From Myxococcaceae bacterium (GTDB lineage: Bacteria > Myxococcota > Myxococcia > Myxococcales > Myxococcaceae): DNA of 64,000 nt. Location of the stretch: contig SECN01000001.1 in the NCBI GenBank assembly GCA_004173515.1, forward strand, positions 1-64,000, written 5' to 3'. Shown in pieces: positions 6,660-24,632 of the stretch; the stretch's first letter is position 1, and every line of letters begins with the position of its first letter. Under the pieces are notes generated by a model. It was given only the letters and a program-made list of their open reading frames with translations, did no database searches and was not told where the DNA came from. Both the position numbers and the translations under genes were made by a program.

Positions 6660-9600
6660 TCACCAGGTGAGGGTGGGCACCTGCACCTCCTGCTCGGCGG
6701 CGGTCCCCACCGTCACGTCCTGACGGTACGTCAGCCACTTCCCGTTGCCCCGGCGCAGCACGAACAGCGTGTAGGACCCGGGCGGCACGTTGCTCCAGGT
6801 CGCATTGCTGGAGGCGGCCGTTTGCAGGGCCCTCTCGCGCAGCCGCTCCGCCGCGTCATCCGAGCCTGGCAGCGGCACCGTGCCCGGGAAGAGGAGCGCG
6901 ATCCCCTGGGCCCCGCGCTCGCCCCAGCGCACCGTCACCGTGGCGCCCTGCGCGGCCGCGACCAGCCCCACCCGGGTGACGCGATGCGCCTCGACGCGCA
7001 CCTTCTGGTAGGGCGCCGCGTAGGGTCCATTCCCAGAGCGCAGGCCCACCAGGTAGTCACCGGGCTCCAGCTCGCGGAAGACGGTCCGCGCGTCATCGTC
7101 CGCGATGTAGTTGGTGACCTCCAGGTCCCGCTCCGAGCGGATCGACACCATGGCGGAGTAGGGCTGGCCCTGCGCATCCTTCACCGTCACCTCCAGGCGG
7201 GTGTCGCCCTGGAGGCGCAATTCGAGCGTGTCCTCGTTGGGGCCCAGCGCGCGCTCCAGCGTCGCGTACTCCGCCTTGTCATGCTGCGCGGTGAGCCGGT
7301 ACGGCCGGGACTCCACGGAGGGCAGGGTGAAGGTGCCATCCCGGGCGGTGGTGGCGTCCAGGAAGCCGCCCGAGACGTCGTAGATGTCGTATTCCTCTCC
7401 CGACTCCTCCTCCGCCGCGGCCTTCAGCTCCTCGAGGGGAAGGGACAGGGAGATGGCCACGCCCTCCAGCGGTTCGCCGGTCGCGTCGTCCACCACGCGG
7501 CCCCGGACGGCGTGCCCCGCTTCGATGCGCACCTCGCCCAGGTCCACGTCGCGCCCGGCGGGGACGCGCACGTCGCGCTGGGTGAACGCGTGGCCCGGGG
7601 CCTGGAAGGTCAGGTGATGGAGGCCGGGCTTGTCCACGAAGACGGTGAAGGCCCCGCGCGGGTCGCGCACGGGCTCCTCGTTCAGGTCGAAGCGCGTGAT
7701 GGGCGCCCCGTTCGGTTTCACCAGCCGCCCGGTGATGTGGCTCTGGGCGGTCAGGACGACGCGCACGGCCAGGTTGCCCGCGCGGGCGATGACCTTGGGG
7801 TCTTCATCGTGTCCCTTCCACCGGCCCATCTTCAGCTCCCCGAGCAGGTCCGCGATTCCTTCGTCTCCTTCGTCCTCCTCGGGCTCGGGCTCGGGCTTCG
7901 CGGGCGGGCGGGGCATCGCGTAGCCGGGCTTCGCCGCCTTCACCTCGTAGTCCCAGTCCCGGGCCATGGGCTCCAGGACGAAGCGGCCGTCGGGCCCCGT
8001 CTTGTTCTCCAGGGGGGAATAGGTGCGGCCCCTGCTGCCCTCTTCTTCCCGGGCCAGGGCCGTCACGGTGACGCCCGCCAGGGGCTGGCCCTGGCCATCC
8101 ACCACCACGCCGGCCATCCGTCCATCCAGGTCCAGGTGCAGCGCGAGCTCCACGGTCTCCGAGCCCCGCAGCTCCACGCGCTGGGGCATCCGTCGCTGGT
8201 AGCCGCCCTCGGTCGTCTGCACCCAGACGGCGTAGTTGCCCGGCTCCACGCCCTTGATGGTGAAGGTCCCTGCCTCCTCCGTGGAGCCCGCGAAGTCGAC
8301 GCGCCCGTGGTCCTCCGGGTCGTCCTCGTTGATGCCGCCCTTCGTCAGGGTGACGTCCACCCCGTTGACGGGGAGGCCGCTGGAGTTCGTCACGGTGCCC
8401 CGCACCGTGGCGCCGGAGTCCAGGGTCACCTGGACTCCGGAGGAGGGGGCCTGGGCCTGGAGTTCCTTGCGCAGGAAGCCCTCCGCTTCGACGGCGAGGA
8501 TGCCGGCCATGGCCTGGTCCACCTTGATGACGAAGTGGCCCGTGTCGTCGGACGTGGCGTCGAAGGTGCGGATGCGCATGTGGTGCGAGCGGTGCATGAG
8601 GATCCGCGGCCGGACTGGAAGCTCATCCTCGGGCCGTGGCCGCAGCGACACGGCGGCCTCCTTCACCGGCTGGCCCTGGGCGTCCAGGACCTGGCCCTCC
8701 AGGAGGGTCGCGGGAGACAGGACGAACTCCAGGGGCGGGGTGTCGTGGCCCACGGTCCGCTCCTCGGTGAGGTCCAGCATCCGCTCCGCCATCACCTGGA
8801 AGTGATACGAGCGGGCCAGCAGCGGGCCCAGGCGCACGTGGCCTTCCGCGTCGGTCTGCTGGGTCTTGTTCACGCCATCACCCACCACGCCCAGGTCGAA
8901 GGTGTCGCTGTCCGCGCCGATGGCGACCACCACGGCGTCGCGCACGGGACGGCCCGCCGCATCGCGCACGGTGGCGTCGACGAAGAACGCGCTGCCCAGG
9001 CGGAGCGTCACCTCGGCTTCGGACTGGTGCTCCGTCAGCTCCACCTGGGCCAGGGCCCGCTGCCCGCCGTGCTCCGTGGTCATGACGTAGGCGGAGGGCA
9101 GCAGGTTGTCGAAGCGGAAGCGCCCGTCGGCGTCGGAGACGGTGATGCGCTCACCGTCCCGCTCCACCACGGAGACGCCCGGGACGGGCCGCTCGCCGTC
9201 CAGCACCTGGCCCACGATGCGCCGGGGCGGGTGCAGCACCAGGTCCTCTTCCAGGGCCTGCGGCCCCAAATCTTGGAGCCAGGTGGAGAGCTTGCCGGGG
9301 TGGGACGCGGCCAGGGTGTAGGAGGCCTCGGGCAGGGGGCCCACGGCGAAGCGGCCCTCGGCGTCGGCGACCGCTTCGAAGTAGCGGGCGTTGCCGGTGT
9401 GCAGCACCGTCAGCCGGGTGCCGGGCAGCGGGGCGCCATCCTCGTCCACCACGCGGCCGGAGAGCCTCTTCGCGGGGACGAGCACCAGCTTCAGGTCCTG
9501 GGTGCCGGTGGCGACGTCCTCCTCCAGGGCCGCGCCCTCGGGTCCCAGCGCCCACACGGCGACGGAGCCCTGGGGCAGACCCTCCAGCGTGAAGGTGCCG

Positions 9601-10016
9601 TCCTGGGCGGAAGGGGTGCTGGTGAGCACGAAGGCGGAGCCCCGGTGGGAGGCCACCATCTCCAGCGCCCAGTCCCAGGCGGACGCGGTGGTGCAACCGC
9701 TGTCCGCCAGGGAGACGGCGGGATCCGTGTCGCAGGGCAGCTCCGACAGGGTCTCGCCCGGCAGGGGCACCGTGGCGGAGACCTCCACGCCGGCGGCGGG
9801 CTGGCCCCGGGCGTCCAGGACGCGGCCCCGCACCTGGAGGGCACCCCGGGGCGGTTCGGGTGGAGGGGTCGACAGCGGCCTGCGCACGGGCCTGGACGTA
9901 GCGGAGGGCGCGTCCTTCGAGGACGGTGCGGTGGGGCTCAGCCACCCGAAGATGCCCGCTCCGATGAGGAGCAGGAGCACCACTCCCCCCATGACCACCG
10001 CCGACGGCTTCCGCAT
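6660..10016 (-). CDS. Membrane-anchored carboxypeptidase-regulatory-like repeat protein
   Basis: This 1118-aa protein has one N-terminal hydrophobic segment (about residues 8-26) that serves as a signal anchor, followed by a Pro/Ser-rich linker. It then carries about ten Ig-like units of the carboxypeptidase-regulatory/transthyretin type, recognised by the recurring pattern G.V.D..G.P..G..V and D..G.F....L..G.Y.L. There is a Glu/Asp/Pro-rich insert near residues 700-720. Such proteins are common, large and surface-exposed in myxobacteria, and they act as adhesive or structural stalks; no catalytic residues are visible. The reading frame is intact over 3.3 kb, in contrast to the two frameshifted genes just downstream. 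The start is ATG 10016. The role is inferred only from the fold. Confidence 0.8.
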   Translation of the reverse strand: MRKPSAVVMGGVVLLLLIGAGIFGWLSPTAPSSKDAPSATSRPVRRPLSTPPPEPPRGALQVRGRVLDARGQPAAGVEVSATVPLPGETLSELPCDTDPAVSLADSGCTTASAWDWALEMVASHRGSAFVLTSTPSAQDGTFTLEGLPQGSVAVWALGPEGAALEEDVATGTQDLKLVLVPAKRLSGRVVDEDGAPLPGTRLTVLHTGNARYFEAVADAEGRFAVGPLPEASYTLAASHPGKLSTWLQDLGPQALEEDLVLHPPRRIVGQVLDGERPVPGVSVVERDGERITVSDADGRFRFDNLLPSAYVMTTEHGGQRALAQVELTEHQSEAEVTLRLGSAFFVDATVRDAAGRPVRDAVVVAIGADSDTFDLGVVGDGVNKTQQTDAEGHVRLGPLLARSYHFQVMAERMLDLTEERTVGHDTPPLEFVLSPATLLEGQVLDAQGQPVKEAAVSLRPRPEDELPVRPRILMHRSHHMRIRTFDATSDDTGHFVIKVDQAMAGILAVEAEGFLRKELQAQAPSSGVQVTLDSGATVRGTVTNSSGLPVNGVDVTLTKGGINEDDPEDHGRVDFAGSTEEAGTFTIKGVEPGNYAVWVQTTEGGYQRRMPQRVELRGSETVELALHLDLDGRMAGVVVDGQGQPLAGVTVTALAREEEGSRGRTYSPLENKTGPDGRFVLEPMARDWDYEVKAAKPGYAMPRPPAKPEPEPEEDEGDEGIADLLGELKMGRWKGHDEDPKVIARAGNLAVRVVLTAQSHITGRLVKPNGAPITRFDLNEEPVRDPRGAFTVFVDKPGLHHLTFQAPGHAFTQRDVRVPAGRDVDLGEVRIEAGHAVRGRVVDDATGEPLEGVAISLSLPLEELKAAAEEESGEEYDIYDVSGGFLDATTARDGTFTLPSVESRPYRLTAQHDKAEYATLERALGPNEDTLELRLQGDTRLEVTVKDAQGQPYSAMVSIRSERDLEVTNYIADDDARTVFRELEPGDYLVGLRSGNGPYAAPYQKVRVEAHRVTRVGLVAAAQGATVTVRWGERGAQGIALLFPGTVPLPGSDDAAERLRERALQTAASSNATWSNVPPGSYTLFVLRRGNGKWLTYRQDVTVGTAAEQEVQVPTLTW

Positions 10017-10161
10017 GGCGCCCCTCCAGGGTGGGCGACTGTAGCAGGAGGGCTGACGTGGACCGCGAGCGGGGGGCTTCAGCCCGGCGCGTCAGGGGGG
10101 GCCGGAGGAAAAAGAAGGGGTCGAACCAAGGATTCGAGCGACCGACGTATTTGGAGATGAG

Positions 10162-10365
10162 GTGGGAGTGACGGAGGCAGAGCCGTCGTCGCTCAAGGGC
10201 TTCGGGCGCAGAGCGTCCTGGGCGGAGGGGGGAAGGGTTCTGGGGGTCGATCTTCCGGAACTCCTCAAGGTTTTCGAAGGTCGTCGTCTTGAAGGCACAA
10301 GCAGGACGGAAGCGGGTCTTTGGGGGCCGCTTTCGATGAGGGGGACCCCTCGGGGGAGGGGTTGA
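10162..10365 (+). CDS. Possible 67-aa small protein (or part of a small RNA)
   Basis: A GTG start at 10162 is preceded by GGAG with five bases of spacing. The frame runs 67 codons and stops at 10365, two bases before the left arm of a perfect terminator hairpin. The predicted product is basic, has a short amphipathic stretch (LPELLKVFEGRRLEG) and shows no signal peptide or known domain. The terminator shows that something is transcribed on this strand, but the ORF itself may be accidental in such GC-rich DNA. A structured small RNA is an equally good explanation. Confidence 0.25.
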   Translation: MGVTEAEPSSLKGFGRRASWAEGGRVLGVDLPELLKVFEGRRLEGTSRTEAGLWGPLSMRGTPRGRG

Positions 10366-16435: not shown

Positions 16436-17749
16436 ATGAAACCCGCCACCTCCCGCCACCCCGTTCGCCTGGCCCTCGCGCTGGCGACGCTCCTGCTCGC
16501 ACCGCTGGTCCATGCACAATCACCCACCGAGCCGGACTTCTCCTGGGTGCCCGGCAACGGTGGCGCCAGTGAGAAGCCGCTGTCCTTCGGCGCGTTCACC
16601 GGCGAGTTCCGAGCCGACACCGTCTACCACCACAGCTTCAACCACCCGCAGGACGACACCCTCTCCGGATCCAGCGAGGTCTTCCGCCACGGCGAGGTGC
16701 AGGTCACCCAGTTGGGGATTGGCGGCGACTTCCTCTACAAGAACGTGATGGGTCGCCTGATGACCCAGTTCGGTCTGTATTCGCAGACGACGCCGCGCAA
16801 CGACGCGAGTCCCGCGCGTGGCCAATGGAACCTGGACGACGCCTACCGCTACATCTCCGAGGCGTACGGCGGCTACCACTTCGATGCGCTGCGAGGCATC
16901 AACCTCCAGGCCGGCATCTTCATGAGCTACATCGGCCTGTGGAGCTACTACAACGCGGACAACTGGACCTACCAGCCGTCCTACGTGTCGTCGAACACGC
17001 CGTGGTTCTTCAATGGCGTGCGCGCTCAAATCTTCGTGAGCGACACCCTCAAGATCGAACCCTGGCTCGTCAATGGCTGGCAGTCCTACGGCCGCTTCAA
17101 CGACGGCTACGGCGTGGGCGGGCAGCTCCTCTGGCGGCCCACCGGCTGGCTGTCGGTGGTGGGCAACCAGTATTACGGCACGGACACCTTGGGCAATCCT
17201 GGCCGCCGTCGCATCCACACCGACGACAGCGTGATGGTGAAGTACCACGACAATCCCAACGGCTTCGTCAGCAAGGCAGCGGCATCCGTCACGCTCGACG
17301 CGGGCTGCGAGTTCGGCGGCGGCGTGGACTGCGGGTCGCAATACTTCCTGGGGTTCATGGCCTACCACCGCCTGTGGTTCGCCCGCGACCGTCTGGCATT
17401 GACGGTGGGCGGGGGCGCCATCACCAACCCCGGGCGCTACCTGGTGCTCCTGCCGCCCATCAACGGGACGACCGCGGCCTCCGGCACGCCGTACTTCACC
17501 GCGAACCCCGGGGACCGCTATCAGGCGTATGACTTCCAGGTGGCCGCGGACGTCATGCCCCAGCCCTTCATCACCTTCCGCCTGGAATTCAACCACCGCG
17601 CCGCCAACGTGCCGTACTTCTCCGGACCCGGAGGCGTCACGCCGCCAGGAGGCAACCAGGGCGCGCCCGGCTCGCTCGTGGACGGCTGGAGTCCGGATCT
17701 GGTGAAGCGCGAGAACCGCCTCACCGGCGCGTTGATGGTGAAGCTCTAA
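16436..17749 (+). CDS. Porin-like outer-membrane beta-barrel protein
   Basis: This 437-aa protein has a clear signal peptide (residues 1-27, cleaved after LVHAQ). The remainder alternates polar and hydrophobic residues, is rich in Tyr, Trp, Phe and Gly, and ends in LTGALMVKL, a beta-barrel-like C-terminal strand. Length and composition fit the putative outer-membrane beta-barrel porins of Gram-negative bacteria. The substrate is unknown. The gene stands alone: it is divergent from yhaO, 284 bp away, and its stop overlaps the convergent thioredoxin-fold gene by four bases. Confidence 0.8.
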   Translation: MKPATSRHPVRLALALATLLLAPLVHAQSPTEPDFSWVPGNGGASEKPLSFGAFTGEFRADTVYHHSFNHPQDDTLSGSSEVFRHGEVQVTQLGIGGDFLYKNVMGRLMTQFGLYSQTTPRNDASPARGQWNLDDAYRYISEAYGGYHFDALRGINLQAGIFMSYIGLWSYYNADNWTYQPSYVSSNTPWFFNGVRAQIFVSDTLKIEPWLVNGWQSYGRFNDGYGVGGQLLWRPTGWLSVVGNQYYGTDTLGNPGRRRIHTDDSVMVKYHDNPNGFVSKAAASVTLDAGCEFGGGVDCGSQYFLGFMAYHRLWFARDRLALTVGGGAITNPGRYLVLLPPINGTTAASGTPYFTANPGDRYQAYDFQVAADVMPQPFITFRLEFNHRAANVPYFSGPGGVTPPGGNQGAPGSLVDGWSPDLVKRENRLTGALMVKL

Positions 17750-18873
17750 CGCGACTTCGAGGGCCGTGTTTCATGCAGGGGCGCCAGGTCGACCGGCGCG
17801 TAGTAGTGCCGGTCGCCGAGCGCGTCGACGCGCCGCCAGAAGTCCTCGCCCACGGCCAGACCGCTCGCGTTCTTCCGGGCCGTCTGTCGCCAGAGCGCCC
17901 AGGAGTCCGGGTGCAACCGGGTCGCCTCGGCGAACTCGGCCGCGGCCTCGTCGGCCTGCCCGTCGCGCAGCAGCGCCTGGCCCAGACGAAAGTGCGCGTG
18001 GGCTTCGGCGCTCGCCGCGTCGGGAACGGTCAGCCGCGCCATGACGGCCTCCGCATCGAGGGCGTACGGGCTCGCGCTGCCACGGACCGCCCAGTCGCGC
18101 ACGGCGTCCAGGTACGCCGCCTTCGCCCGGTCGCGCGCCTCTCGCACCGACTCCGGCATCGCGAAGCTCTGGCGATCCATGGCTCGGAAACTGTCCGTCA
18201 TGCCCGCGGATTCGGGTGGCCGCACCATGCGTCCGGCTTCGTCGATCCAGACGGCCTGTGGCACGTTGACGAGGTTGTACAGATTCGCGGTGAGGTGGTC
18301 GCGGTCGATCAGGCACGGATACCCGGGTGAGGCCGCCTCGATCCAGGGCCGGGCCGCGTCGGGCCCGTCCAGCGCGATCGCCAGCACCGTGAAACCGTGC
18401 TCCCTGGCGGATTCGTACAGCGAGTTCCAGACGGGCAGGTCTGCTCGGCAGCCGCACCACGAGGCCCAGGTCACGAGGAAGACCTTGCGACCCCGGTGGT
18501 CAGACAGCCGATGCAGCCGCCCATCCAGGTCGGGCAACGCGAAGTCGGGCGCCTCCAGTGAGGTCAGCGCAGCGGCACGGCGTGATGCGCCCTCTCCGAG
18601 CACCCAGAGGCTCCCCGAGCGGCTGTGGACGACAGGCCACTCCGCGTGCCGCCACACGCCCGCCACATCGATACGGTCGCCGTCGACCAGCGTCCGGTCG
18701 CCGCGTGGGAAGGGCATACACGTGTCGTCTCGACACAGGCCCACGGGCTTCCAGAGCCAGCCGGTGACGCTCTCCAACTCCCCCTTGTCCAGCCAGAGGG
18801 CGTCGCCGTCGGCCGTCGCGTTTGCGAGGTGCATGTCCTGCGAATCATGAATCACCCGAATTCCGCTCATCAT
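17746..18873 (-). CDS. TlpA/redoxin-fold protein with C-terminal TPR-like region
   Basis: This 375-aa protein starts MMSGIRVIHDSQD, with a GGAG seven bases before ATG 18873. Residues ~120-260 form a thioredoxin/AhpC-like domain (APDFALPDLDGRLHRLSDHRG, then VTWASWCGCRADLPVW). The active site is WCGC, that is C-x-C instead of the normal C-x-x-C. The N-terminal ~110 residues resemble an NHL/propeller piece, and the C-terminal ~70 residues contain a tetratricopeptide-like pair (AHFRLGQALLRDGQADEAAAEFA). There is no signal peptide, so it probably acts in the cytoplasm. It is divergent from an AraC regulator 114 bp away, which probably controls it. Confidence 0.75.
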   Translation of the reverse strand: MMSGIRVIHDSQDMHLANATADGDALWLDKGELESVTGWLWKPVGLCRDDTCMPFPRGDRTLVDGDRIDVAGVWRHAEWPVVHSRSGSLWVLGEGASRRAAALTSLEAPDFALPDLDGRLHRLSDHRGRKVFLVTWASWCGCRADLPVWNSLYESAREHGFTVLAIALDGPDAARPWIEAASPGYPCLIDRDHLTANLYNLVNVPQAVWIDEAGRMVRPPESAGMTDSFRAMDRQSFAMPESVREARDRAKAAYLDAVRDWAVRGSASPYALDAEAVMARLTVPDAASAEAHAHFRLGQALLRDGQADEAAAEFAEATRLHPDSWALWRQTARKNASGLAVGEDFWRRVDALGDRHYYAPVDLAPLHETRPSKSR

Positions 18874-18930
18874 CGAAACGCTCCGTGGCTTGAGTCGTGA
18901 CGAAACTACGCAGCGGAGCGAGTCGAAGCC

Positions 18931-18963
18931 TGCCCGATTCTCGGGAACCCTTGCCTGATTCTC
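18931..18963. promoter_or_regulatory. Putative AraC operator: two direct repeats, 21-bp period
   Basis: TGCCCGATTCTC (18931-18942) and TGCCTGATTCTC (18952-18963) match in 11 of 12 bases and are offset by exactly 21 bp, two helical turns. AraC-family dimers typically bind direct repeats with this spacing. The site lies 25-57 bp before the regulator start, in the intergenic region shared with the thioredoxin-fold gene. Confidence 0.55.
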
Positions 18964-18987
18964 TCCACGTCCGCAGAATCGTCTCGA

Positions 18988-19926
18988 ATGCCTGCCAACC
19001 CACCCAAGCGAACGAACGACGAGGGGTTCCATGAGAGCCTGCGGCGGCTGACCGGGTACGCGCTGCGACTCATTCCGCCTGCGAAGGCTCAAGCGGCGCA
19101 GCTCGTCACGCCACGGCACGGCCTGTACCTGCTGCGGCAGCACCAACGCACGGTCTTCGAAGCCGCCATCTATACTCCGGTGCTTTGTCTGATTCTCCAG
19201 GGATGCAAGGAGATGACCTTCGGCGATCACCACTTTCGCCTGCGTGCCGGCGAGTGCGCGCTGGTCAGCCACGACCTGCCGATTGTCTCCCGGGTCCGGG
19301 ATGCTCCCTATCTGGTGTTGCTGCTCGACATCGAGGTCGAGGTGCTTCGGAGCCTCTCCGAAGACCTCGGCGAGTGGATGACGGCTCCCGCCGAAGCGCG
19401 GGCACTCGAGGTCCATCAGGCCGACTCGCGCCTGCTCGACGCCATCGGCCGCTATCTCACGCTCGCGGAGTCGGAGCTGGACGCGCGGGTGCTCGGCCCG
19501 ATGTTGCTCAAGGAGATCCACTACCGCCTGATGATGGCGCCGCTCGGTCACATGCTGCGGAGCCTGCTCCGGCCCGACAGCCACGCGAGTTCAATCGCCC
19601 GCGCCATCGCGCTGCTGCGGCGGGACTTCCGCTCACCGATGGTGGTGGAGGAGCTGGCGCGCGAGGTGGGGATGAGCGTCTCGTCCTTCCACAAACACTT
19701 CAAGGACGTCACCGCGTCTTCGCCGCTGCAGTACCAGAAAGGCCTGCGCCTGCTCGAATCACGTCGGATGCTCGTGGCGGGCGCGGCCTCGGTGACCACG
19801 GTCGCGTTCGAGGTGGGCTACGAGAGTCCCAGCCAGTTCAGTCGCGAGTACGCACGAAGGTTCGGACGGCCACCCAGCCAGGACGTGGCGCCCAGGGCGC
19901 TCAGCGCCTCTTCACGCGGTCCTTGA
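18988..19926 (+). CDS. AraC-family transcriptional regulator
   Basis: The 312-aa product has an N-terminal cupin-like sensor domain of the AraC_N type (residues ~30-190) and two C-terminal helix-turn-helix motifs. The first is EELAREVGMSVSSFHKHFK; the second ends in VTTVAFEVGYESPSQFSREY, followed by the conserved RRFGRPP. The latter is the AraC signature. It is divergent from the thioredoxin-fold gene with 114 bp between them, and a pair of direct repeats at 21-bp spacing lies in that gap. It probably controls both itself and that neighbour. The ligand is unknown; related AraC_N regulators often sense alcohols, aldehydes or other redox-active compounds. Confidence 0.88.
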   Translation: MPANPPKRTNDEGFHESLRRLTGYALRLIPPAKAQAAQLVTPRHGLYLLRQHQRTVFEAAIYTPVLCLILQGCKEMTFGDHHFRLRAGECALVSHDLPIVSRVRDAPYLVLLLDIEVEVLRSLSEDLGEWMTAPAEARALEVHQADSRLLDAIGRYLTLAESELDARVLGPMLLKEIHYRLMMAPLGHMLRSLLRPDSHASSIARAIALLRRDFRSPMVVEELAREVGMSVSSFHKHFKDVTASSPLQYQKGLRLLESRRMLVAGAASVTTVAFEVGYESPSQFSREYARRFGRPPSQDVAPRALSASSRGP

Positions 19927-20661: not shown

Positions 20662-21624
20662 TCAGGGCTCGCGGCGGAGCACGAGCAGCGCGTACTCCAG
20701 CCCGCCATCCATCAGGCCTTGTTGCAGCCACAGGTGGTCGCGCTGCGACTCCATCCGCACGGCGTTGAGCGCGGCGCGCAGGCTGCGGGCGTTCGCGGGG
20801 GCGTGCTCCATGTATTCGTGGACGAGCAGCTCCGACGTCAGCGTCCAGAATCCCACCGCGCGCGCGGACACGTCGTCATGCACCTCCAGCTCCAGGCCCG
20901 CTTCCTGCGCGGCCAGGAGGAATTCGCTCACGCTGCCCAGGTGCGTGCGCCACGCATCCCCGGACGGGTGCACCGCGCCGGGGCGCACCCAGAAGCAGTC
21001 CGCGATGGCCAGCATGCCACCGGGCTTGAGCCACGCACGCGCGGCGCGCAGCCAGTCCGCGCGAGGGATGGAGCACGTGTTCTCCACGGCGATGATGGCG
21101 TCGAAGCACGCGCGGCCCTGCAGCTCCGCCGGCGAGGACAGCCGGGCCTGCACGCGCTCCGCCACGCCCGCCTCGTGCGCGAACCGGAGCACCTGCTCCA
21201 CGTGCTCGGGCACGTTGACCATCGCCGTCACGAAGGCGCGGTGTTCCTGGGCCCAGTACAGCGCGCTGCCGCCCAGGCCGCTGCCCACGTCCATCACGTC
21301 GCCGCCGTCCGGGAAGGGGGCCATGGCGCGCGCCAGCTCCGCGAGCAGCGCATCCTGCGAGGCCCGCAGCCGCTCGCGCAGCTCCGGTTCCGGCGTGCCG
21401 GGCGGGGGCAGCCGATCCACCAACCCCATGTGGCAGTGCACCCGGGGGCCGGGGCCGTAGCGGGCGAGTCCGCGCGTGGCGAGGGCTTCATGGTAGGCGC
21501 GCAGGTCGGTCGGGAGCGCGGGCGGGCGGGCGCCGCCGCTGGCCGGGAGCGATTCGCTGCCGTCACCCCGGCGCGGTTCGAGCGCGGGGGGGAGCGTCTT
21601 GTGGAAGGCTCTCAGGGTCTTCAT
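20662..21624 (-). CDS. Class I SAM-dependent methyltransferase
   Basis: The 320-aa product has a Rossmann methyltransferase domain with motif I VMDVGSGLGG (residues ~115-125), an acidic loop at the end of strand 2, and the post-motif pattern FDAIIAVENTCSI followed by LKPGGMLAIADCFW. This is the layout of small-molecule C- or O-methyltransferases. The ~90 residues before motif I are helical and contain HCHMGLVDRL. The ATG overlaps the stop of the histidine-kinase gene in an ATGA, so the two proteins are made together. That is an unusual pairing. The substrate cannot be read from the sequence. Confidence 0.8.
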   Translation of the reverse strand: MKTLRAFHKTLPPALEPRRGDGSESLPASGGARPPALPTDLRAYHEALATRGLARYGPGPRVHCHMGLVDRLPPPGTPEPELRERLRASQDALLAELARAMAPFPDGGDVMDVGSGLGGSALYWAQEHRAFVTAMVNVPEHVEQVLRFAHEAGVAERVQARLSSPAELQGRACFDAIIAVENTCSIPRADWLRAARAWLKPGGMLAIADCFWVRPGAVHPSGDAWRTHLGSVSEFLLAAQEAGLELEVHDDVSARAVGFWTLTSELLVHEYMEHAPANARSLRAALNAVRMESQRDHLWLQQGLMDGGLEYALLVLRREP

Positions 21625-22976
21625 CGGTACTCCCGGGGCAGCAGGATGCGAAGCAGGGCACCGCCGCCCGGCCCGTTGTGGCGATGCAGCAGGCCCCCGC
21701 TGGCGCGTAGCAGGCACTCGCTGGTGTAGAGGCCCAGCCCGGTGCCCTGGGACTTGGTCGTGTAGAGCTCCTCCGCGGGCGCGGTGAGCCGTTCCGGGAG
21801 GAAGCCGGGTCCGTCGTCCTCGATTTCGACTTCCAGCCTCCCGCTGAGCGGTTCGGTGCGAGCGCGGATGAAGACCTGGGAAGCGCCCTGTGCGCCATTG
21901 CCCTCGCATGCGTTGACAACCAGGTTCTCCACCACCCGGCGCAGCGTGACGGGGCCGCCGCGCAGGAGCGCGCGCTGGGGACGGGGCGGCTGCAGCTCCA
22001 CGTGGATGTCCACGTCCGGGAAGCGCAGGGCCACCTGGGCCTGCACGGCCTCCAGCACCGGCCCCAGCTCCACGGGCTCGGGCTCGGTGCCGGCGAAGCG
22101 GCGGCCCTTGGCGCGCACCTCCTTCACCATCTCCTGGAGCTGGCGGAGGCTGTCCTGGAGCTGGCGGGCCTGGTCCTCGAACTCCGTGCGCGCCAGGCTT
22201 CCGCGCTGTGCGCCGAAGGCCTTCATCATGTCCGCCGCGCTCTCCGCGTGGAGCAGCGCCTGGTCCATGTCGTGGTGGTGGCGCAGCATCTCCGCCATGG
22301 CCTGGGTCAACTGGCCCACGTCGCGCTCCTGCTGTTCGATGAGCTGCGCGTGCACGGCGGCGCGCAGGCGCTCCGCGTCCGCGCGGGCCTGGTCATGCCG
22401 CACGGCGAAGGTGCCCAGGTACAGCTCCGCGATGAGGGCCGAGGGCACCACGATGGCGAAGAGCACCGCGTGGTCGGCGCCGGCGCTCAGGGGCAGCGCG
22501 CACAGCATGCCCACGAGCGTGCCCACCGCGAGGAAGGGCTCGCGCCACGTCACGCGGTACTGGCGGCCATGCGCGGCGGTGGTGAAGACGAGCGCCATGC
22601 CGAAGACGATGGCCCCCGGCATCGCGGCGAGCGCCATGAGGCTCGCGAGGAAGAAGTGCAGCAGCGCCATGCAGGGCAGCCGCCACAGCCAGCCCCAGGT
22701 GGACAGCCGCGCGCGGCGCGAGTGCACCACGGAGAAGGCCAGCCCGCTGACGATGCCGGGCAGGAAGCACGCGAACGCGGTGGAGAAGGGGAGGGCGAAG
22801 AAGGTGCGCGCGCCCGGGGCCCAGGACACGGCGGCGAGCAGCGCGGTGCCCGCGAGGGCGGTGCCCACGCAGGTGCCCACGCGTTCGGAGGCGAGGATGC
22901 GCGCCGCGTCCTGGGCATGCATCCAACGGCGGAAGGCCGTCACCACCACGGAGGAGGACTCTGGCGGGGCCCTCAT
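21621..22976 (-). CDS. Membrane histidine kinase coupled to a methyltransferase
   Basis: A 451-aa protein starts at ATG 22976 (MRAPPESSSVVV). It has about six hydrophobic segments between residues ~25 and 200, without a recognisable sensor domain. After these come a coiled-coil stretch and an unusual H-box (EMLRHHHDMDQALLHAE). The ATPase domain has the N-box NLVVNACEGNG, G1 DDGPGF and G2 GTGLGLYTSE. It is thus a complete kinase of the HATPase_c type. No response regulator is adjacent. The stop overlaps the methyltransferase ATG by four bases. The signal may be membrane-borne and the output may act through an unlinked regulator. Confidence 0.8.
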   Translation of the reverse strand: MRAPPESSSVVVTAFRRWMHAQDAARILASERVGTCVGTALAGTALLAAVSWAPGARTFFALPFSTAFACFLPGIVSGLAFSVVHSRRARLSTWGWLWRLPCMALLHFFLASLMALAAMPGAIVFGMALVFTTAAHGRQYRVTWREPFLAVGTLVGMLCALPLSAGADHAVLFAIVVPSALIAELYLGTFAVRHDQARADAERLRAAVHAQLIEQQERDVGQLTQAMAEMLRHHHDMDQALLHAESAADMMKAFGAQRGSLARTEFEDQARQLQDSLRQLQEMVKEVRAKGRRFAGTEPEPVELGPVLEAVQAQVALRFPDVDIHVELQPPRPQRALLRGGPVTLRRVVENLVVNACEGNGAQGASQVFIRARTEPLSGRLEVEIEDDGPGFLPERLTAPAEELYTTKSQGTGLGLYTSECLLRASGGLLHRHNGPGGGALLRILLPREYR

Positions 22977-23885: not shown

Positions 23886-24632
23886 TCACGCCTCGTCCGT
23901 CGCGTCCGGCGGCTCTTCGCCTCCGCCGCCCGCGCCGGACAGCAGCACCAGCTTGGAGCCGTTCCACGTGGCCTGGAGGTTGCGGGCCCGGCGCGCGCGC
24001 TTGCGGCTCAGCTCCACGCCCACCGCGTCCATTCCCAGCGCGTTGGCCACCGCGAGCGCCGTGCCGTGGCCGCAGAACGGATCCACCACCGTGCGCGTGC
24101 GCGTCTGCTCCAGGATGAAGCGGCACGCCACCAGACACGCGGACAGCCCCATGCCGCGCGTCCACGTCACCTCGCCGGCCTCCGGCAGCACGTCCGCGGT
24201 GGACTTCGCCGCGTCCGTCTTCAGGCCCCTGGAGAAGCACAGCAGGTGCGAGTACGCGGGCCGCCCGAACGTCACCGTCCCCGGCGTCCTGCGGCACACC
24301 ACCTTGTGCCAGAGCGTCTCACAGCCCGCCGCCTCCGCCGCCTTGGACACCAGGTAGCCCTTGTCCACCCAGGCCCCATCCTTCTTCACGTCGGACTGGT
24401 AGAACACCGCCACCCCGTCCTCTGGCACCCGCGACAACACCCGCGCCGCCGCCCCCACGAACCAGTCCTTCCACTGGGGCAGCGTGAGCGAGGGGAACTC
24501 GGAGACGTCCGGCATGGACGCCACCACCGAGCACCCCGCCAACACCGGGCGTGCGTCCAGCCACGCCAGCGCGTCCTCGCAGTACACCGTGCGCTTCGCT
24601 CCCGCCGCTCCGCTGTGCCCGTCGTCCGTCAT
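23886..24632 (-). CDS. DNA/RNA-type SAM methyltransferase domain protein
   Basis: The 248-aa product ends with a methyltransferase motif I, DPFCGHGTALAVANALG, followed by VGVELSRKRARRARNL. This is typical of N4/N6 DNA methylases and Trm11-like RNA methylases. The position where a catalytic (D/S)PPY motif is expected (residues ~37-45) reads SMPDVSEFPS, so the usual active-site Tyr is missing. The middle section has KGYLVSKAAEAAG and FGRPAYSHLLCFSRG. There is no restriction enzyme nearby. The start is ATG 24632. A nucleic-acid substrate is likely, but which one is open. Confidence 0.7.
   Translation of the reverse strand: MTDDGHSGAAGAKRTVYCEDALAWLDARPVLAGCSVVASMPDVSEFPSLTLPQWKDWFVGAAARVLSRVPEDGVAVFYQSDVKKDGAWVDKGYLVSKAAEAAGCETLWHKVVCRRTPGTVTFGRPAYSHLLCFSRGLKTDAAKSTADVLPEAGEVTWTRGMGLSACLVACRFILEQTRTRTVVDPFCGHGTALAVANALGMDAVGVELSRKRARRARNLQATWNGSKLVLLSGAGGGGEEPPDATDEA

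Follow-up and report, generated by a model that had tools for sequence, protein, structure and literature searches.

The ComQXPA quorum sensing locus of Bacillus, as laid out in PMC4008528, serves here as the architectural reference. A second group of described systems comprises the pairs of terpene synthase and methyltransferase (2-methylisoborneol, sodorifen and SvaMT-type), in which, according to PMC12929941 and PMC12723460, a SAM enzyme methylating a prenyl diphosphate is found beside an isoprenoid-fold enzyme. For one such methyltransferase, C6-FPP-MT, PMC12929941 gave Glu165 the role of base and Phe243-Trp244 a positioning role, and described His194 and Phe45 as essential or nearly so.

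The window analysed here (64,000 nucleotides, positions 1 to 64,000 of contig SECN01000001.1 of a Myxococcaceae bacterium, assembly GCA_004173515.1) contains a sensor histidine kinase gene (HK) overlapping a methyltransferase gene (MT). We consider it rather probable that this pair is a reduced version of a cassette conserved in myxobacteria, in which a membrane sensor is tied to (methyl)isoprenoid chemistry, with a presumed ligand, MT substrate and output. The features are as follows.

21621..22976, minus strand: HK, six-TM sensor histidine kinase of 451 aa (open reading frame with ATG start and translation; Pfam HATPase_c; orthologs)
22413..22880, minus strand: membrane-spanning part of HK, residues 33-188 (hydropathy)
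22260..22283, minus strand: H-box RHHHDMDQ, HK residues 232-239 (alignment of 62 HKs)
22272-22274, minus strand: third His of the H-box, residue 235, aligned with the ancestral phospho-acceptor (H0)
21717..21929, minus strand: intact ATP-binding N, G1 and G2 boxes of HK (ENLVVNACEG, EDDGPGF, TTKSQGTGLGLYTSE; alignment)
21621..21624, minus strand: ATGA overlap of the HK stop and the MT start
20662..21624, minus strand: MT, SAM methyltransferase of 320 aa belonging to the prenyl-diphosphate C-methyltransferases (open reading frame with ATG start; phmmer; profile)
21268..21297, minus strand: SAM-binding motif VMDVGSGLGG of MT
21082..21084, minus strand: MT E181, aligned with catalytic Glu165 of C6-FPP-MT (role from PMC12929941)
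20845..20850, minus strand: MT F259-W260, aligned with Phe243-Trp244 of C6-FPP-MT (role from PMC12929941)

The first-pass annotation had described a six-TM kinase sharing an ATGA overlap with a class I methyltransferase gene, with no response regulator next to the pair, and each of these points stood up to closer inspection. Hydropathy gave five clear membrane segments in HK and a weak sixth, visible only in the alignment average; across the family, six segments were scored in 33 of 62 kinases, five in 28 and four in one. The overlap was found in all 16 genomes of the window's genus, which is presumably Corallococcus, in 13 of them from called genes and in three by reading the sequence (gene calls came from a home-made codon-usage caller, not a standard program). 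HK and MT are adjacent in 16/16 genomes of the genus (59 genomes searched), a pairing that is more than chance. A search for a conserved pair in other genomes had been proposed, with unlinked genes in relatives as the outcome that would speak against it; the genes proved to be linked throughout the genus. The neighbouring called genes (Pfam on seven) include no response regulator; orphan histidine kinases are common, and a missing adjacent regulator does not exclude membership of a two-component system.

Two other stretches of the neighbourhood may be mentioned. Neither the redoxin/TPR gene nor the AraC-type regulator at window 17746-19926 has a counterpart in the 20 neighbourhoods compared; the two are perhaps an insertion in the window's lineage. 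On the other side, a conserved flank gene (window 23886-24632, minus strand; 17 members among the loci compared) gave a marginal match to DNA N6/N4-methylase just below the Pfam cut-off.

HK possesses the HATPase_c domain (Pfam, E 4.3e-15) together with the N, G1 and G2 boxes (the statements on the G2 box are based on motif strings), as a two-component histidine kinase should, and these boxes are intact in 16/16 genomes of the genus. HisKA gave no match in the window HK at E<=1 (Pfam), and the HK of locus L072 gave E 0.08. Orthologs were detected in 62 of 193 genomes of the phylum (E<=1e-30). A RegB/PrrB-type redox kinase was also considered and rejected, as the NCBIfam match was weak (E 3.5e-9, 36 bits vs a cut-off of 350) and reflected the kinase core. 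Three homologs of a Hyalangium-like group (L075, L147 and L148) have damaged N or G boxes and lack H0; they are probable pseudokinases retained in the operon, judging from their alignment.

MT (METHYLTRANSFERASE) matched two PDB entries by phmmer, 9tb4 (4.6e-38) and 7fbh (1.2e-31), with the next match at 3.3e-9. A family profile built from 12 rows raised these to 5.6e-82 and 6.8e-73 over nearly the full length, with the next best at 3.6e-23, and the Pfam match was to Methyltransf_25 (1.3e-7). This full-length relationship to the C6-FPP-MT / BezA group places MT, by sequence, among the prenyl-diphosphate C-methyltransferases. An ordinary quinone or fatty-acid methyltransferase is disfavoured by the PDB and profile rankings, and the corresponding NCBIfam matches were far under their cut-offs. 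The catalytic Glu is kept in 55 of 56 MT family members and Phe-Trp in 56/56, both sets of residues being present in 16/16 genomes of the genus. In the window MT, two residues of the FPP pocket are replaced, Phe45 by Cys64 and His194 by Cys210 (BezA also lacks His194, having Val). The enzyme is therefore not classed as an FPP-specific C6-FPP-MT proper, but more broadly as related to the prenyl-diphosphate C-methyltransferases, with no substrate or methylation position assigned.

The pocket is altered throughout the genus. In all 16 MTs of the genus, position 45 is occupied by Cys or Gly and position 205 by Ser or Thr; in the 38 MTs from loci that contain X, a gene described below, the residues are Tyr/Phe and Phe, respectively (the two degenerate MTs of G032 and G112 being set aside). 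The changed pocket goes with the loss of X. The Tyr37 position is Gln in 9/16 genus MTs, and the enzyme may therefore have lost or altered its prenyl activity. Elsewhere in the window's genome there are three terpene synthase domains, two in a single ORF on contig C47 and one on C321, unlinked to the HK-MT pair; a methylated precursor could serve these synthases as substrate.

The syntenic locus of other Myxococcaceae, among them Myxococcus xanthus, has the order c13 - HK - X - MT; in Myxococcus and its relatives, the genes HK, X and MT follow one another directly and mostly overlap. A scan of named genomes yielded 20 loci, including Myxococcus xanthus AM003, Pyxidicoccus, Hyalangium and Archangium (the names are record titles, of which one 'Comamonas' and one 'Klebsiella' look mislabelled). 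X is predicted to adopt the isoprenyl-diphosphate-synthase fold: its AF2 model (pLDDT 94.9) matched farnesyl and geranylgeranyl diphosphate synthases, with 4wk5 as the best structural match (Z 23.4, rmsd 2.6 over 232 residues), and no Pfam family scored above cut-off. Trans-isoprenyl diphosphate synthases have a second Asp-rich motif and an IPP-binding Gly-Lys-Arg motif. The DDxxD motif of X (D74, D75, D78) is invariant in 20/20 sequences; the place of the second motif reads E-D-x4-D, and a GKR-like motif was not seen in an alignment judged by eye. The product of c13 is a small protein with uncertain start positions, whose conserved core is central, not C-terminal; its AF2 model (pLDDT 76) had no PDB match at E<=0.001.

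X was found in 49 of 195 phylum genomes and c13 in 45 of 193, and the two co-occur in nearly all genomes with either one. Among the 49 genomes with X, 35 have c13-HK-X-MT, including G036, in which X and MT are fused, and seven have DyP-RR-c13-HK-X with no MT. The remaining arrangements are HK-X-MT with no detected c13 (one), c13-HK-X (one), c13-HK-X-RR (one), an X-MT fusion followed by DyP-c13-HK (one), DyP-X-MT with no HK (two) and a contig fragment (one). RR-like genes occur in the Archangium-type loci and in L180, a deep member (7545-10301, minus strand) whose regulator-like gene directly follows X. In L072 (8225-8593) and the Archangium-type loci, a receiver-like gene precedes c13 (E 0.012, under the Pfam cut-off); by eye it is missing the phospho-Asp, and it is likely a pseudo-receiver. 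In three deltaproteobacterial MAG loci (L089, L091 and L094), c13 adjoins X in the absence of HK and MT, and c13-X may be the older core.

MT is present in 56 of 193 phylum genomes (E<=1e-25), 53 of which also have HK. HK lacks an accompanying MT in 9/62 genomes (six g8 genomes, G018, G048 and G069), and MT lacks HK in G032, G112 and G079; no further cassette genes were found within the 9-10 kb surrounding the HK of G069 and the MT of G079. Given the nine HK genomes lacking MT and the three MAG loci with c13-X and no HK, no pair in the cassette is obligatory. Of the earlier suggestion that the kinase acts on, or together with, the methyltransferase, 'together' is supported by the linkage in the genus and the presence of HK in 53/56 MT genomes, and 'acts on' by phosphotransfer is not supported.

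In the phylum search, X and c13 were each found in 0/16 genomes of the window's genus. The Myxococcus loci and the window share their flanks: c4, c3, c2 and c9 lie on one side, and the opposite side has a metallophosphatase gene together with a small lipoprotein-like and an AAA-like one. It is therefore from precisely this site that c13 and X are absent. Upstream of HK in 13 genus loci, a search for c13 remnants returned only antisense matches (E 0.002 or worse), taken as chance. By this comparison of loci, the genus has lost c13 and X, keeping HK and MT as an ATGA-coupled pair, and the direct contact of HK and MT is derived, as X sits between them elsewhere.

Phylogenetic trees of HK (45 of 62 sequences) and MT (41 of 56, plus two PDB references) both recover the genus as a single clade near the genomes of Myxococcus type. 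In the tree of MT, the degenerate g18 pair joins the genus at support 87, possibly a long-branch join. The stem of the genus is 0.39 vs 0.068 for the Myxococcus type in the HK tree, and 0.61 vs 0.074 in the MT tree. Median dN/dS in the genus was 0.60 for MT and 0.49 for HK (13/16 genomes, G002, G003 and G007 being excluded), compared with 0.13-0.37 across five genes of the neighbourhood (9-12 genomes per gene); in 27 Myxococcus-type genomes the medians were 0.30 for MT, 0.41 for HK and 0.32 for X. These ratios were calculated by the Nei-Gojobori method on very GC-rich genes, with pairs outside the dS limits dropped, and serve only as comparisons. They suggest that constraint on HK and MT was relaxed or changed after the loss of X, not abolished; slow decay, too, would be compatible with a dN/dS of about 0.6.

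The H-box of the window HK had been noted as odd. The oddness was confirmed, but it is not a fixed feature: HHHD occurs in the window and in three relatives from the genus, the remaining 12 of the 16 members having HHQ or HHE. Distant members of the HK family have YNHD or WNHD, and most Myxococcus-type kinases YHHD or YHHE. H0 is His in 37 of 62 HKs and lost in 25; within the genus it is kept in 4/16 and missing in 12/16 (the H-box survey leaves aside the HKs of G055 and G069, and the H-box tree also L079). On an HK tree built without the H-box columns, the H0 label requires four changes, read here as four losses in the family. A His two residues upstream of H0 is present in all or most members of three of the four H0-loss groups (the genus, the L159-L171 Myxococcus group and the Hyalangium-like group), and in 22/25 HKs lacking H0 vs 7/37 having it, although these counts are not independent. 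HHH-type sequences occur beside HHQ sequences both in the genus and in the L159-L171 group. The window's H-box is thus one step of a repeated change, a transitional state; either the acceptor moved or it was given up, and both would fit the alignment. The series is a natural experiment, in which the phospho-acceptor was repeatedly lost while, in the majority of cases, the ATP site stayed intact, in kinases that are still under constraint.

According to the cassette reading favoured above, a prenyl or methyl-prenyl compound would be produced or modified by MT (and by X where present). Being lipophilic, this product would partition into the membrane, where the 6-TM kinase would also reside; the kinase may respond to it or to the membrane's isoprenoid state, and translational coupling would keep the ratio of sensor to enzyme in step. 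In the genus, this system may have drifted or shifted, as suggested by the faster evolution, the altered MT pocket and the passage of the H-box from a canonical to a His-less form. As the H-box is moving toward the His-less form, signalling need not be classical phosphotransfer. Genes of one operon, moreover, do not necessarily serve one pathway.

A more specific version can be put forward only tentatively: an undescribed myxobacterial sensing system, in which the multi-TM kinase detects a non-canonical (methylated) prenyl compound or a prenylated product of its own operon, and in which this kinase has gone over repeatedly to a non-canonical mode, the H-box passing from YHHD through HHHD to HHQ, with the window as the intermediate.

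It seems unlikely that the cassette is a ComQXP-like cell-cell signalling system, with c13 as peptide precursor, X prenylating c13, MT methylating the prenyl donor and the 6-TM kinase as receptor. The reading has its appeal for the full cassette, the same types of parts stand in a row (an isoprenyl-synthase fold, a small protein and a multi-TM HK) and c13 travels with X, but none of the 13 invariant columns in 18 c13 proteins is Trp or Cys, the conserved core of c13 is not at the C-terminus, most loci have no adjacent ComA-like regulator, and the window's genus retains HK in the absence of c13 and X. Moreover, the census in PMC4008528 found no such locus outside Firmicutes. Membership of ComQXPA itself was rejected on the lack, in c13, of an invariant Trp such as ComX carries close to its C-terminus, and on the absence of c13 and X from the genus.

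It is similarly doubtful that the pair in the window's genus is a decaying relic, undergoing slow loss with no selected joint function. The loss of c13 and X, the raised dN/dS, the long stems and the drifting H-box and pocket residues all point that way, but the open frames, the ATGA junction, the ATP-binding boxes and the Glu and Phe-Trp of MT are kept in 16/16 genomes, and dN/dS is still < 1.

Finally, the proposal that HK phosphorylates or directly regulates MT, the two forming a signalling unit that replaces kinase plus regulator, is consistent with the ATGA coupling, the intact ATP-binding boxes and the absent adjacent regulator, but is very improbable. Phosphotransfer to MT, as first suggested, was set aside as the leading explanation on account of H0, which only 4/16 HKs of the genus retain and which the family has lost on four occasions, whereas MT is retained in all 16 genus genomes. 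In addition, X ancestrally lies between the two genes, and the seven DyP-RR-c13-HK-X genomes have no MT at all.

Returning to the cassette reading, it would, if true, link bacterial homoterpene chemistry with two-component sensing, fields hardly in contact, and would give an enzyme family, with a testable product, to a gene product so far called only methyltransferase. The full four-gene cassette occurs in a strain of Myxococcus xanthus, a species with good genetics. Among open-licence PMC papers, screened by titles and the starts of abstracts, we found no published description of a cassette of kinase, prenyl methyltransferase and X, and the term 'histidine kinase' does not occur in the main text of PMC12723460.

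Compared with the Streptomyces enzymes C6-FPP-MT (9tb4) and BezA / C6-GPP-MT (7fbh), MT shares the full-length profile match, the catalytic Glu and Phe-Trp; unlike them, the window MT is partnered by a kinase and not by a terpene synthase, and in the window's relatives the X protein, about 242-245 aa long, has an isoprenyl-synthase fold. From the terpene synthase and methyltransferase pairs, the myxobacterial cassette differs in having a sensor kinase and c13 as parts. The relatives of the window resemble ComQXPA (PMC4008528) in having genes for an isoprenyl-transferase fold, a small protein and a multi-TM kinase in a row, whereas their c13 has no conserved Trp/Cys, an additional methyltransferase is present and an adjacent ComA is mostly missing. 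The window itself differs further in lacking X and c13. Each part of the cassette has known relatives; it is for the combination of kinase, prenyl methyltransferase and X that the open-licence papers showed no precedent.
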